NCBI GenBank assembly: GCA_019352035.1
Contig: JABBNZ010000018.1
Location: 1 to 58,588, forward strand
Reading direction: 5' to 3'
From: Pseudomonadota bacterium
GTDB lineage: Bacteria; Pseudomonadota; Gammaproteobacteria; Steroidobacterales; Steroidobacteraceae
Length of the DNA: 58,588 bases
The notes under the pieces are model-generated. The model was not told where the DNA came from. It saw only the letters and a list, made by a program, of their open reading frames with translations, and made no database searches. The translations under genes and the position numbers were made by a program. Positions 10,915 through 58,477 of the stretch are shown here, one piece after another. Numbering within the stretch: position 1 is the first letter of the stretch; each line of letters starts with the position of its first letter.

Positions 10915-11066
10915 TGCTCGGCCCATCCTGGGCCTCACCCGGTACTCGGCCCGTCCTGGGCCTCCCCCCGTCGGGGCCGTCAATCGCCGGCGCGCTTGAC
11001 GTTGCAGATCGCTCCCGACGATCGTCTTGGACGCGCCGCGCGTAAAACCGCTCCCGGCGATTTTGT
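10915..11066. repeat. Family A palindromic repeat, copy A1 (composite, tilS-pyrG gap)
   Basis: The element begins on the first base after the tilS stop. It has two copies of the head hairpin (GGCCCATCCTGGGCC at 10920-10934 and GGCCCGTCCTGGGCC at 10948-10962) and two copies of the tail hairpin with loop TCCCG (GATCG.../...CGATC at 11007-11023 and one at about 11046-11062). It looks like a tandem or rearranged double copy. Matching elements occur in kdsA, sdhD and lolD. This is the only copy in the window lying outside a reading frame. Confidence 0.75.
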
Positions 11067-11079
11067 GATAACCTGCGCT

Positions 11080-11132
11080 CCCGTCGTTCGGCGCGATCTT
11101 CGAGCGCCGCAGGCAGCAGTTCTCACGACGGG
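11080..11132 (+). promoter_or_regulatory. Nested inverted repeat in the pyrG leader
   Basis: CCCGTCGT at 11080-11087 pairs perfectly with ACGACGGG at 11125-11132, enclosing an inner stem GGCGC/GCGCC (11090-11094 and 11104-11108). It ends about 17 bp before the pyrG ATG, and TGTGATAAC just upstream (11064-11072) could serve as a -10 region. A structured leader is plausible; a regulatory role is inference. Confidence 0.4.
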
Positions 11133-11149
11133 ATATCCCTGATTTAACT

Positions 11150-55170: not shown

Positions 55171-56442
55171 ATGACCAGGATGTTCCATCCCCTGTCGCTG
55201 TTCGTGGGCCTGCGTTACGTGCGCGCACGATCCACGAAGTTCTTCGTCTCCTTCATCACCTGGACCTCCCTGGCCGGCGTCTGCGTGGGCGTTGCGGCGC
55301 TCATCGTCATCCTCTCCGTGATGAACGGCTTCGAGGGAGACCTGAGACAGCGATTGCTGTCGCTGGATGCCGATGCGAGGGTGGTGCCTACGGAATCGCG
55401 CGGCGCGGCGGCGCCGGATCCCGAGCAGTGGCAGCGCGCCGCCAGGGCGATCCGCGGCTCTCCCGGTGTGGCCGGCGTCGCGCCATACGCCCAGATCCAG
55501 GCGCTCGCCGTGCGCACCCCGGTGATGCTGCCCGTGCAGCTGCGCGGCATCGATCCGAAGGCCGAGCCTTCCGTCACGCGCCTCGCCGGCGCGATCAAGG
55601 AAGGCAGGCTGTCCGACCTCGCTCCCGGCTCGGAGCGGGTCATCGTCGGGGAGGTGATCGCCGAGGAGCTCGGGCTCGCCCCGGGCGATTCCCTGACCCT
55701 GCTCATTCCCACCGTCAGCGCCGGGGGCGTGCCGACGCCGAAGCTGCGCCAGTTCAAGGTGGCGGGCATTTTCGGAGTCGGCCTGTCGGACAGCGACGCC
55801 GCGCTGGTGTTCGCCAACATCGCCGACGTGCGCGCGCTCGGGCCCTCGGCCCGGGGGGATGAGGGGCTCAGGGTGCGCTACCGGAACGCCCTGGACGCGC
55901 CGGCGATCTCCGCCGGGCTGCGAACGAGGCTGCCGCGGGGATTCCAGGTCATCGACTGGACGCAGGACAACGCGGACTACTTCCACGCGATCCGCATAGA
56001 GAAGACCATGATGTCGCTCATTCTGCTGCTCATCGTCGCGGTGGCGGCATTCAACATCGTGGCCATGCTCGTCATGGTGGTCACCGACAAGCGCACCGAC
56101 ATCGCGATCCTGCGCACCTTCGGGGCATCGCCCCGGCGGGTCATGGGGGTCTTCCTCACCCAGGGCCTGGTCATCGGGTGGCTGGGCGTCGCGCTCGGGG
56201 TCGGCCTCGGCCTGGCGCTCGCCTACAACGTCCGAACGATCGTGCCCTTCCTGCAGAACACCTTCGGATTCCAGATCTTCAGCTCCAGCGTCTACTACAT
56301 CACCACCGTTCCGTCGGTCGTGAAGTTGAGCAATGTGGTGACGATCAGCGTTGCGGCGCTGCTGCTCACGGCCGCGGCAACCGTGTACCCGGCGGTCCGG
56401 GCCGCGCGCACGTCCCCCGCCGAGGCTCTGCGCTACGAGTAG
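55171..56442 (+). CDS. lolC: Lipoprotein-releasing ABC transporter permease LolC
   Basis: LolC with LolE and LolD extracts outer-membrane lipoproteins from the inner membrane and hands them to LolA. The 423-residue product has the start FVGLRYVRARS, one N-terminal membrane helix (about 28-50), a large periplasmic domain (about 55-270), and three C-terminal helices with FNIVAMLVMVVTDKRTDIAI and the final RTSPAEALRYE. The periplasmic loop SDSDAALVFANIADVR fits LolC-type subunits. No classical promoter was seen. Confidence 0.92.
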   Translation: MTRMFHPLSLFVGLRYVRARSTKFFVSFITWTSLAGVCVGVAALIVILSVMNGFEGDLRQRLLSLDADARVVPTESRGAAAPDPEQWQRAARAIRGSPGVAGVAPYAQIQALAVRTPVMLPVQLRGIDPKAEPSVTRLAGAIKEGRLSDLAPGSERVIVGEVIAEELGLAPGDSLTLLIPTVSAGGVPTPKLRQFKVAGIFGVGLSDSDAALVFANIADVRALGPSARGDEGLRVRYRNALDAPAISAGLRTRLPRGFQVIDWTQDNADYFHAIRIEKTMMSLILLLIVAVAAFNIVAMLVMVVTDKRTDIAILRTFGASPRRVMGVFLTQGLVIGWLGVALGVGLGLALAYNVRTIVPFLQNTFGFQIFSSSVYYITTVPSVVKLSNVVTISVAALLLTAAATVYPAVRAARTSPAEALRYE

Positions 56443-56448
56443 CCGACC

Positions 56449-57702
56449 GTGAGCTCACCGTACGAATGGCTGGTCGGCACACGCTATCTGCGCTCCACTC
56501 ACCGGCGCGGCTTCGTGTCGTTCGTCTCGCTCATGTCCGTCTGCGGGCTCGCGCTCGGGGTGGCCACGCTCATCGTGGTCCTCTCGGTGATGAACGGCTT
56601 CGGCCGGGAGCTGCGCAGCCGCATTCTGAGCGTGACTTCCGATGCGACCATCATGGGCCTGCAAGGCACCATCCCCGACTGGCGGTCGGTGCAGAAGCGC
56701 GTGGAGCGTGAGCCCGGCGTGCGCATCGCCGCGCCGTACGTCGAGGAGCAGGGGATGCTGACTCATGGCCAGCACATCACCGGCGCTTCGGTGCGCGGCA
56801 TCCTGCCGGAGGAGGAGCGGCGTGCGACGGGCCTGGCGCAGAAGCTGACCGCCGGAAGCCTCGCGGACCTTCAGCCCGGCCGATATGAGGTGATCCTGGG
56901 GGACGCCCTGGCGCAGGCGCTGCACGTCCACGTCGGCGATTCGGTCGTGTTGATCGCGCCGGAAGGGGTGGCGACCCCGACCGGGGTGATGCCCCGCATG
57001 CGCCGCTTCCGGGTGACGGGTCTCTTTCACTCCGGGATGTATCAATACGACCGGGGACTTGCCCTGGTGAACCTCACGGATGCGGCGCGGCTCTTCGGCC
57101 TGGCGCCGGATGAGGTCACCGGGATGCGTCTCGCTCTCGATGATCCCTGGCAGGCGCCCAGGGTGGTGAGGCGGATCGCCTACGACCTCGGCGGCGCGGG
57201 CTACTACGTCAGCGACTGGACGGAGAACCACGCCAACTTCTTCCGCTCCATCGAGACGACGAAGTCGATGATGTTCGTCATGCTCTCGATGATCGTCGCG
57301 GTGGCGGCTTTCAACATCGTCGCGACCCTCGTCATGATCGTCAAGGAGAAGCAGACCGACATCGCGATCATGCGCACCTTCGGCGCCGGCCCGCGCAACG
57401 TGCTCGTCATCTTCGCGATCCAGGGCATCATCATCGGCCTCGCCGGGACCTTGCTCGGGGCGGGACTCGGAGTGCTGGTGTCACACAACCTGCAGGCGAT
57501 CGTCGGCGGACTCGAGCGGCTGTTTCATACTCGGTTTCTGAACCCGCGGGTGTACTACATGAGTGAGCTTCCGGCCTACGTGGAGGGCTTCGACGTGCTG
57601 CGCGTCTGCGGCGTGGCATTCCTCCTGTGCGCGTTGGCGACCGTCTATCCGGCGTGGCGCGCCGGGCGCACGGCTCCGGCGCAGGCGCTGCGGCATGAGT
57701 AA
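56449..57702 (+). CDS. lolE: Lipoprotein-releasing ABC transporter permease LolE
   Basis: The 417-residue product is a paralogue of the gene before it, with the same layout: start FELY-like segment YEWLVGTRYLRS, N-terminal helix (about 24-46), periplasmic domain and three C-terminal helices (FNIVATLVMIVKEKQTDIAI, final RTAPAQALRHE). The LolC/LolE distinction rests on order and on MYQYDRGLALVNLTDA in the periplasmic domain, so it could be swapped. GTG start. The stop overlaps the lolD start by 8 bp. The gene order lolC-lolE-lolD differs from E. coli lolCDE. Confidence 0.88.
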   Translation: MSSPYEWLVGTRYLRSTHRRGFVSFVSLMSVCGLALGVATLIVVLSVMNGFGRELRSRILSVTSDATIMGLQGTIPDWRSVQKRVEREPGVRIAAPYVEEQGMLTHGQHITGASVRGILPEEERRATGLAQKLTAGSLADLQPGRYEVILGDALAQALHVHVGDSVVLIAPEGVATPTGVMPRMRRFRVTGLFHSGMYQYDRGLALVNLTDAARLFGLAPDEVTGMRLALDDPWQAPRVVRRIAYDLGGAGYYVSDWTENHANFFRSIETTKSMMFVMLSMIVAVAAFNIVATLVMIVKEKQTDIAIMRTFGAGPRNVLVIFAIQGIIIGLAGTLLGAGLGVLVSHNLQAIVGGLERLFHTRFLNPRVYYMSELPAYVEGFDVLRVCGVAFLLCALATVYPAWRAGRTAPAQALRHE

Positions 57703-58477
57703 ATCGTCGGGAACGATTTACGACGACACGCGCGAGCGTGTCGGCCCCCGCGCTGATAAATCGCCCGTACTCGAGGCACGCGAAGTTTCCAAGAGCTTCC
57801 GCCAGGGTCCGGTCTTGCTCGACGTACTATGCGGCGCCGCCCTCTCGGTCGCCGCCGGCGAGCGGGTGGCGATCGTCGGCGCCTCGGGTTCCGGCAAGAC
57901 GACGCTGCTGCAGATCCTGGGCGGCCTCGACCGGCCGACCCGCGGGCAGGTGCTGGTCGATGGCCGCGACATTCACCAATTGACGGAAAGGGAGCGGGGG
58001 GAGCTGCGCAATCGCGCCATCGGCTTCGTCTACCAGTTCCATCACCTGTTGCCGGAGTTCTCCGCCCTGGAGAACGTCGCCATGCCGCTGCTGGTGCGCC
58101 GCGCGCCCGTGGCCGAGGCCCGCAAAGCCGCCCGGGAGCTGCTGGAGCGCGTCGGCCTCGGCCAGCGCCTCGAGCATCGTCCCCACCAGCTGTCGGGCGG
58201 GGAGCGCCAGCGCGCCGCGGTGGCCCGCGCGCTCGTGACGCAGCCGAAAATCATTCTCGCCGACGAGCCGACCGGCAACCTGGACGGCGCGAATGCGGAG
58301 TCGGTGTTCGGCCTGATGCTCGAGCTCAACCGCGAGCGGGCGACGAGCCTGGTCGTCGTGACGCACGATATCCGCCTGGCGGACCGGATGGATCGGGTCT
58401 ACGAGATCGAGAAAGGCAGGCTCTCGGAGCGTCTCACGCCGCCGTTGCGACGTGGCGAGTCCTATACCGGGACGTGA
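57695..58477 (+). CDS. lolD: Lipoprotein-releasing ABC transporter ATPase LolD with repeat-encoded N-terminus
   Basis: LolD powers lipoprotein release. The 260-residue product has Walker A (GASGSGKTTLLQILGG), the LolD-typical VYQFHHLLPEFSALENVAMP, the ABC signature LSGGERQRAAVARAL and Walker B (ILADEPTGNLD). E. coli LolD has 233 residues. Residues about 3-23 (KSSGTIYDDTRERVGPRAD) come from a family A palindromic element, and the first 12 match the SdhD N-terminus in 9 positions. The conserved part starts near VLEAREVSKSF. No other ATG lies between; residues after 248 are also extra. Confidence 0.93.
   Translation: MSKSSGTIYDDTRERVGPRADKSPVLEAREVSKSFRQGPVLLDVLCGAALSVAAGERVAIVGASGSGKTTLLQILGGLDRPTRGQVLVDGRDIHQLTERERGELRNRAIGFVYQFHHLLPEFSALENVAMPLLVRRAPVAEARKAARELLERVGLGQRLEHRPHQLSGGERQRAAVARALVTQPKIILADEPTGNLDGANAESVFGLMLELNRERATSLVVVTHDIRLADRMDRVYEIEKGRLSERLTPPLRRGESYTGT
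57701..57760. repeat. Family A palindromic repeat, copy A4, translated as the LolD N-terminus
   Basis: Two perfect hairpins: AAATCGT/ACGATTT with loop CGGGA (57701-57719) and CGACACGC/GCGTGTCG with loop GCGA (57724-57743), then GGCCCCCGCG. It starts 3 bp after the lolD ATG. The GGCCCA/TGGGCC hairpin of the longer copies is missing. Confidence 0.75.

Follow-up and report, generated by a model that had tools for sequence, protein, structure and literature searches.

The tRNA-linked repeats (TLRs) of Escherichia coli were first described in 1978, without known function (PMC8144298). According to the sections of that source available to us, E. coli carries 22 copies at ten loci, in which 18–19 bp at the 3′ end are identical to the tRNA or rRNA upstream. 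The repeats rrA, rrB, and rrF are transcribed and processed and bind both Hfq and CsrA, and CsrA binding by rrB falls when GGA 1, 2, and 5 are changed; in the same sections, CsrA binding and processing are reported for these three E. coli repeats only. The interval between the rrnB terminators T1 and T2 is also said there to be common in cloning plasmids. Here we analyze contig JABBNZ010000018.1 of a Steroidobacteraceae bacterium (58,588 nt, hereafter the window), which carries copies of a short palindromic element at the sdhC-sdhD, lolE-lolD, kdsA-eno, and tilS-pyrG junctions. In core sequence and structure the element is homologous to E. coli rrB. We consider it fairly probable that it is a TLR-type element that moves and bears CsrA-like sites, and that its dispersed copies are mostly passengers.

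Element Architecture and Kinship With rrB

The original prediction, made from the window alone, had singled out a hairpin with the loop TCCCG (CGGGA on the other strand). In copies read in context, this hairpin proved to share a unit with three others, the whole measuring ∼72–76 nt. We call the GGA strand of the element sense; on it the order is H4 (ACAAAATCG-Y-CNGGA-R-CGATTTT), GGAC, H3, H2, and H1 (loop around CAGGATG), often followed by GAGC, and the loops display CNGGA in H4 and CA(R)GGA(U/C)G in H1. The core was over-represented throughout the organism's own genome (4.5 Mb in 217 contigs, 95% complete): ATCGTTCCCGACGAT with up to two mismatches matched 58 times against 2 for a reversed control pattern, and ATCGNTCCNGNCGAT with up to one mismatch 170 times against 6. 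An early consensus, TCGTCCCGACGA, was dropped because its 15 window matches, with 13.5 expected, were at chance level.

Twenty-five copies from the same genome were aligned (A1) and used to make a covariance model (R1), which these training copies match by construction. In A1, 92.1% of the pairs were standard and none of 500 shuffles attained any of five covariation measures; 46 cells were altered on both sides with pairing retained, compared with 11.4 in the shuffles, none of which reached that number. The aligned copies had been partly pre-selected for pairing in H4 but not in H1–H3, and compensatory changes were present in every helix, including the second stem in which paired variation had already been noticed (CGACGC/GCGTCG at sdhD, CGACACGC/GCGTGTCG at lolD). 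When five units were folded along with 200 shuffles each, no shuffle was as good for three of them, 3 were for one, and 18 were for the second sdhD unit. A folded structure under selection, as the original prediction had proposed, is thus supported, and with the genome-wide excess of the core and covariation beyond shuffles the underlying observation as a whole was confirmed.

Although trained without E. coli, R1 scored rrB, which lies between the rrnB terminators, at 55.3 bits (2,502 bases searched, E 1.5e-10), and the folds predicted for rrB and for the first sdhD unit have the same four hairpins. Of the five GGAs of rrB, in a numbering that we matched to PMC8144298, the second is in the H4 loop and the fifth in the H1 loop. 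The repeats at tyrT, the only E. coli tRNA TLRs examined, are more distant kin that have order and flanks in common with the element (GGTTCG/AC...GAG/TAATCC, slashes marking the junctions). Among Rfam families, RtT (RF00391) reached 35.6 bits on one related locus (L136), below its gathering score of 45, and AaHKsRNA22 (RF02902) reached 48.5 bits on another (L120), above its gathering score of 39.8. The window itself had no match at Rfam gathering scores, these two families included, and a search of 29920–30130 up to E 1 returned only Termite-flg and PrrB_RsmZ, far below gathering, and neither RF00391 nor RF02902; it was the PrrB_RsmZ match that drew attention to the GGA loops.

Some copies have H4 only and lie within another palindrome, such as ATTGGCG...CGCGGCCAGCC (L017, L019, L025 (3063), L026, L062). 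Several of these follow stop codons directly, and they form a second family with a common H4 core.

Copies in the Window

Two units stand head to tail directly behind the sdhD start codon (ATG at 29949). Unit 1 (29952..30026, + strand, 75 nt, 92.2 bits) opens with H4 at 29953–29975, a perfect 9-bp stem around TCCCG, continues with H3, H2, and H1 (loop AGGAT), and has a predicted fold of −37.5 kcal/mol (z −4.4). Unit 2 (30027..30101, + strand, 75 nt, 53 bits) is diverged but in the same frame, and its predicted fold is unremarkable (z −1.4). The junction reads CCATG/ACAAAATCG..., and the frame is open from the ATG through both units into SdhD. Translation probably begins at this ATG; the open reading frame (ORF; 29949..30485, + strand) would then give 178 aa, consisting of M, 25 aa from each of the two units, and an Sdh_cyt domain from residue 52.

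At the lolE stop and lolD start, a truncated copy (57697..57743, + strand, 39.3 bits) comprises H4 (57699–57721, again a perfect 9-bp stem around TCCCG) and H3 (57724–57743); it would encode the N-terminal peptide SKSSGTIYDDTRERVGPRAD, with the ABC_tran domain from residue 48. The other two copies are in antisense orientation. The one between kdsA and eno (13788..13863, − strand, 89.1 bits) has the third perfect 9-bp stem around TCCCG (13839–13861), and the kdsA ORF (12887–13885) runs through it to end just beyond the eno start; judging by the reading frame, KdsA may carry an element-encoded tail. In the tilS-pyrG gap (10944..11028, − strand, 60.9 bits), the hairpin at 11008–11022 pairs GATCG with CGATC around CTCCCGA; the innermost C·A pair is broken, so that this stem does not strictly enclose TCCCG, as had been claimed for all four sites. 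Two further pieces flank this copy, an H1-like repeat at 10915–10940 and an H4-like hairpin at 11044–11064. The element is thus in sense at sdhD and lolD, where GGA would appear in the mRNA, and in antisense at kdsA-eno and tilS-pyrG, where it would not.

Distribution and Stable-RNA Context

At E ≤ 0.01, R1 found the element in 15 of 30 genomes, namely our own, 11 of 18 other members of the genus, and 3 of 11 that belong to the same order but to different families, with 0 to 20 copies in each of the other genus genomes. Presence and absence differ within the genus, and by comparison of species the element is apparently mobile. An exact 26-letter pattern (H4 plus GTCC) occurred in at least 114 stretches of the species genome collection; because the pattern fixes H4, this set overstates its constancy. 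Among the 80 titled matches listed, many were gammaproteobacterial (including Shewanella, Rheinheimera, Dokdonella, Methylococcus, Alloalcanivorax, Pseudomonas, Salinicola, and Woeseiaceae), others were titled only "Proteobacteria bacterium," and one was a Desulfobulbus. A second model, R2, made from 35 sequences (33 loci, an sdhD unit, and E. coli rrB), matched 71 of 184 genomes of the class, our own included, at E ≤ 1e-4, and 35 of 150 genomes in the phylum, 27 of which were of other classes and had mostly weaker scores. The matches of other classes were mainly in genomes of a single family (f174), some with several copies, and one genome (G187, C1:3570673–3571032) has five 72-nt units head to tail.

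The 114 loci, which are not independent of each other, hold 121 exact elements, 45 of which lie within 400 nt of a tRNA or tmRNA called by ARAGORN, all 45 on its strand. Thirty-three of the 45 come after sequence resembling a T-loop (GGTTCG, for instance). Where the context was read, the RNA gene is accompanied by an additional, incomplete copy of itself that the element interrupts; one example has GGTTCG/element/AATCC beside an intact GGTTCGAATCC. Joining the flanks of 114 copies yielded a sequence found uninterrupted in the same locus for 12 of them: five T-arms (L069, L106, L143, L149, L177), one D-arm (L138), and six tandem units or other repeats. Split D-arm copies were seen in four tRNA-Ser cases (L138, L126, L182, L104), in one of which (L104) a second, related element seemingly sits in the T-loop of the same tRNA copy. 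Three elements neighbor tmRNA, two with a T-loop-like flank (L111, L170) and one without (L118), and in E. coli rrB itself the sequence interrupted is a duplicate of the 5S end (GAGTAGG/element/ATAAACTGCCAGGCAT). Insertion is mostly just 5′ of AA or near one, a pattern noticed in reading to which no statistic is attached. In our own genome the copy beside a tRNA-Arg (L052) has the context of a TLR, as do many loci elsewhere. The four window copies lie between protein genes, outside stable-RNA operons, and are TLR-type elements outside the TLR context.

Dispersed Copies in and Between Protein Genes

In our own genome R1 detected 74 copies at E ≤ 0.01 and 84 at E ≤ 0.1 (150 of 6832 candidates scored), among them tandem units of 72–75 nt, inverted pairs, and the cut-off form at lolD. 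Placement and orientation were counted for the 60 best of 79 matches, the 19 weakest being left out and matches outside the fetched stretches remaining unplaced. Seventeen of the 60 had 80% or more of their length within called ORFs, 27 lay between codirectional, 7 between convergent, and 5 between divergent genes, and 4 were unplaced; the claim that the elements are always at gene junctions thus fails genome-wide. Placement was nevertheless not random: the same gene calls make 90% of this DNA coding, yet 39 of the 56 placed matches are outside called genes. These counts are approximate because the home-made calls miss sdhA. When copies were instead defined by H4 (58 in the fetched stretches plus the window), 11 stood directly behind a start-type codon, 5 of them in frame with the called gene. 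Ten had a stop on the same strand no more than 3 nt away (null 2.6%), and seven had one at a single exact offset (null 0.34%), the null being drawn from intergenic positions only with the home-made calls; part of the exact-offset signal may be built in, because the element-initial A after TG itself makes TGA.

The sdhD junction provides a comparison of occupied and empty states. A genus search returned 30 sdhD loci, among which occupied relatives rank high because the query carried the element; 21 junctions could be read with the motifs used and 9 could not, and of those read 18 were empty and 3 occupied. An empty junction has the start codon, usually one codon, and then CTGCG. The occupied ones are our own, with two units, and two relatives with one unit each (L229 and L231, about 75 and 78 nt); the nearest empty relative (L230) has 88% SdhD identity. 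Further in-frame cases, in which the domain begins after the element peptide, are LolD in the window, an epimerase (L016), a HisB-like IGPD protein (L055), and a cyclase (L018). In a pirin (L049) the element is within the C-terminal part, and Pirin_C is matched in two stretches. For a triosephosphate isomerase (L028) and a response regulator (L027), element-derived sequence stands ahead of the domain in the called ORF, the true start being uncertain. Insertions that leave the gene open have lengths divisible by three. This dispersed, in-frame form of a TLR-type element is new; searches of an open-access library listed no account of TLR elements in dispersed or in-frame positions. An hsdS-like gene, so labeled from a reading of its translation, has the element between the same flanks in Arsukibacterium (L107) and Shewanella (L110), and twice in a third locus (L176).

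Non-random placement, together with the three units whose folds no shuffle equaled, would also suit a cis-acting element at operon joints, used for attenuation, as an RNase site, or as an mRNA stabilizer, and selected at each site. We regard this as unlikely, since the element is patchy even among relatives (7 of 18 other genus genomes, several of them incomplete, have no match at E ≤ 0.01), the sdhC-sdhD joint is empty in most junctions read, and dispersed copies show no preferred orientation.

CsrA-Like Hairpin Loops

ANGGA is the motif of CsrA sites. When a fixed stretch after H4 was searched for hairpins without regard to motif, 28 of the 29 distinct tRNA-linked hairpins had a GGA-bearing loop, compared with 111 of 1835 at random places in the same loci; the 29 remain from 45 tRNA-linked elements after setting aside 6 without a hairpin of at least 5 bp and 10 that repeat hairpins already counted. 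The H1 arms vary freely, all four Watson–Crick types occurring at pairs 2 to 5 from the loop, and some read UACAGGGAUGUA (L111, L120). The loop sequence CAGGAHG or CARGGAHG was present in 21 of the 29, close to both the CsrB repeat, CAGGA(U/A/C)G, and the consensus from systematic evolution of ligands by exponential enrichment (SELEX), RUACARGGAUGU, as given in the available sections of PMC7652899. With GGA thus placed in hairpin loops near these consensus sequences, and with three csrA genes in our own genome (G000: C156, C50, C71), we infer that element RNAs bind CsrA.

Apparent Mobility and Possible Movers

Recognition by a REP-type transposase (RAYT) was among the proposals of the original prediction. 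A rival reading has a REP/BIME-type palindrome moved by a RAYT (a Y1 transposase), recognized as a DNA hairpin and without any RNA role. The element is palindromic and present in many copies, including tandems and inverted pairs, and the unbiased orientation of dispersed copies suits a DNA-level element. Yet a search of our own genome with Pfam PF01797 gave no RAYT and a single Y1 match. This is an IS200/IS605 TnpA whose neighbor is an OrfB_IS605/TnpB gene, and its contig carries none of the 84 listed element matches; in this 95% complete genome no RAYT gene flanked by the repeat was found. PF01797 matched in 13 of 58 genus genomes (own included), and the element occurs without a Y1_Tnp match in G002 (98% complete, 5 copies), G018 (90%, 11 copies), and G014 (75%, 18 copies), some of these genomes being incomplete. 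The consensus also has no GTAG adjoining the stem, and a RAYT-moved palindrome is accordingly improbable. Among the proteins that might recognize the hairpin, an RNA-binding one comes nearest, for which the GGA in CsrA-like loops speaks and the lack of sense bias among dispersed copies does not. It is very unlikely that the element belongs to the CGTC-tagged REPs, a super-family described by Di Nocera et al. (2013) and without a known transposase: CGTC or CGTT does precede the stem on the TCC strand in most of the 25 aligned copies, and an 8–9 bp stem, a 5-nt loop, and no dedicated transposase agree with the available sections of PMC3733652, but the tag should be unpaired and the first two of its four bases pair in H3 of the predicted fold, and the unit here has four hairpins instead of a single 20–40 bp palindrome and lies in tRNA arms.

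The window also contains a second repeat, at 12802–12931 (pyrG-kdsA) and, 15 kb away and in inverted orientation, at 27982–28109, its arms measuring 81 nt (80%) and 29 nt (97%) and containing CATCCATGGCCACC-like palindromes.

Interpretation

Beside tRNA, tmRNA, and rRNA genes, the unit lies within a surplus, incomplete copy of the stable-RNA gene. On the reading preferred here, it would be transcribed and trimmed together with that gene, and growth-linked transcription would thereby release CsrA-binding RNA. In our own genome it would have spread into protein operons, often exactly behind the start codon at an ATGA junction. Most dispersed copies would be tolerated passengers, whereas CsrA-type translational control may have been gained by the few that stand in sense at a gene start, as at sdhD and lolD. 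Regulation by the element is plausible in RNA operons and unproven for dispersed copies.

Several observations weigh against this reading. Orientation of the dispersed copies was unbiased (24 sense and 20 antisense to host or codirectional genes, p 0.65), and GGA was retained alike in both orientations, in H1 (21/24 sense, 16/20 antisense) and in H4 (21/24 and 18/20). GGA conservation in dispersed copies may thus be owed to their recent origin, or to what the moving machinery requires, rather than to CsrA; neither orientation nor GGA retention gave a sign of RNA selection on these copies. Loop GGA was seen in 32 of 39 hairpins of the non-tRNA class, a figure inflated by L108, L125, and L145, whose hairpins are the H4 of a neighboring unit. 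The H4 loop has C rather than A at the ANGGA position, and H1 stems reach 9–10 bp in some copies, whereas most SELEX hairpins have four or fewer pairs (available sections of PMC7652899). Openness in six frames gave no evidence of protein-coding design, 15 of 60 copies being open in all six frames compared with 15.4 in dinucleotide shuffles, and element lengths (114 copies, to the end of H1) fall into the three classes modulo three as 59, 35, and 20, not uniformly multiples of three. In E. coli the tyrT repeats are diverged, score only 4–13 bits (12.7 or less), and have a core without GGA. According to the available sections of PMC8144298, 19 tRNA-operon TLRs have CsrA scores below 0.01, and deletion and overexpression of rrA, rrB, and rrF gave modest, puzzling phenotypes.

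A bolder, joint reading takes the tandem, in-frame, and tRNA-loop copies as products of an undescribed, gene-less kind of mobile element without terminal repeats or long target duplication (no long duplication was seen at element copies), which both rewires CsrA control and gives rise to decoys; taken as a whole we find this doubtful. Insertion would occur just 5′ of AA in the D- or T-loop of a tRNA copy, in a copy of the 5S or tmRNA end, or behind a start codon. Each insertion would plant a ready-made CsrA-type double site and could rewire post-transcriptional control, as at sdhD, lolD, the hisB-like gene, and the epimerase, and the insertions would form a pool for tRNA- and rRNA-derived CsrA decoys.

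Overall, the interpretation offered by the original prediction is partly supported: covariation is present and placement is non-random, and the structure is better referred to the TLRs than to a RAYT. The TLRs are now tied to a widespread, apparently mobile element, the rrnB T1-T2 interval carries the same two GGA loops, and a gammaproteobacterial case is added of palindromes open in frame within conserved proteins. The question is raised whether tRNA-linked elements outside E. coli bind CsrA and how copies behind start codons affect translation.

Comparison With Known Systems

The element resembles the CsrA-sequestering RNAs CsrB, CsrC, and RsmZ in having GGA in hairpin loops, with H1 fitting the CsrB repeat; it differs in offering two loop sites per element rather than many, and its sites are predicted. 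Mycobacterial MIRUs are likewise short, repeated, and mobile, and their insertions lie at start codons, with a −4 nt junction (PMC12548453, available sections); they belong to another phylum, and the element described here lengthens the downstream frame and also lies in tRNA arms. Rickettsia palindromic elements (RPE) share with it a position inside protein genes (as cited in the available sections of PMC3733652), whereas placement here is behind start codons and in tRNA loops; both likenesses are by description only. AaHKsRNA22 (Aggregatibacter sRNA 22) is matched at one locus (L120), a score that the window copies do not reach. The nearest likeness is to the TLRs rrA, rrB, and rrF (in rrnA, B, and D) and rttR/RtT, the rrB core having the same four hairpins with CNGGA in the H4 loop and CAGGA in the H1 loop; unlike the E. 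coli TLRs, copies here are mostly away from stable-RNA genes, in both orientations, and some are in frame within protein genes.

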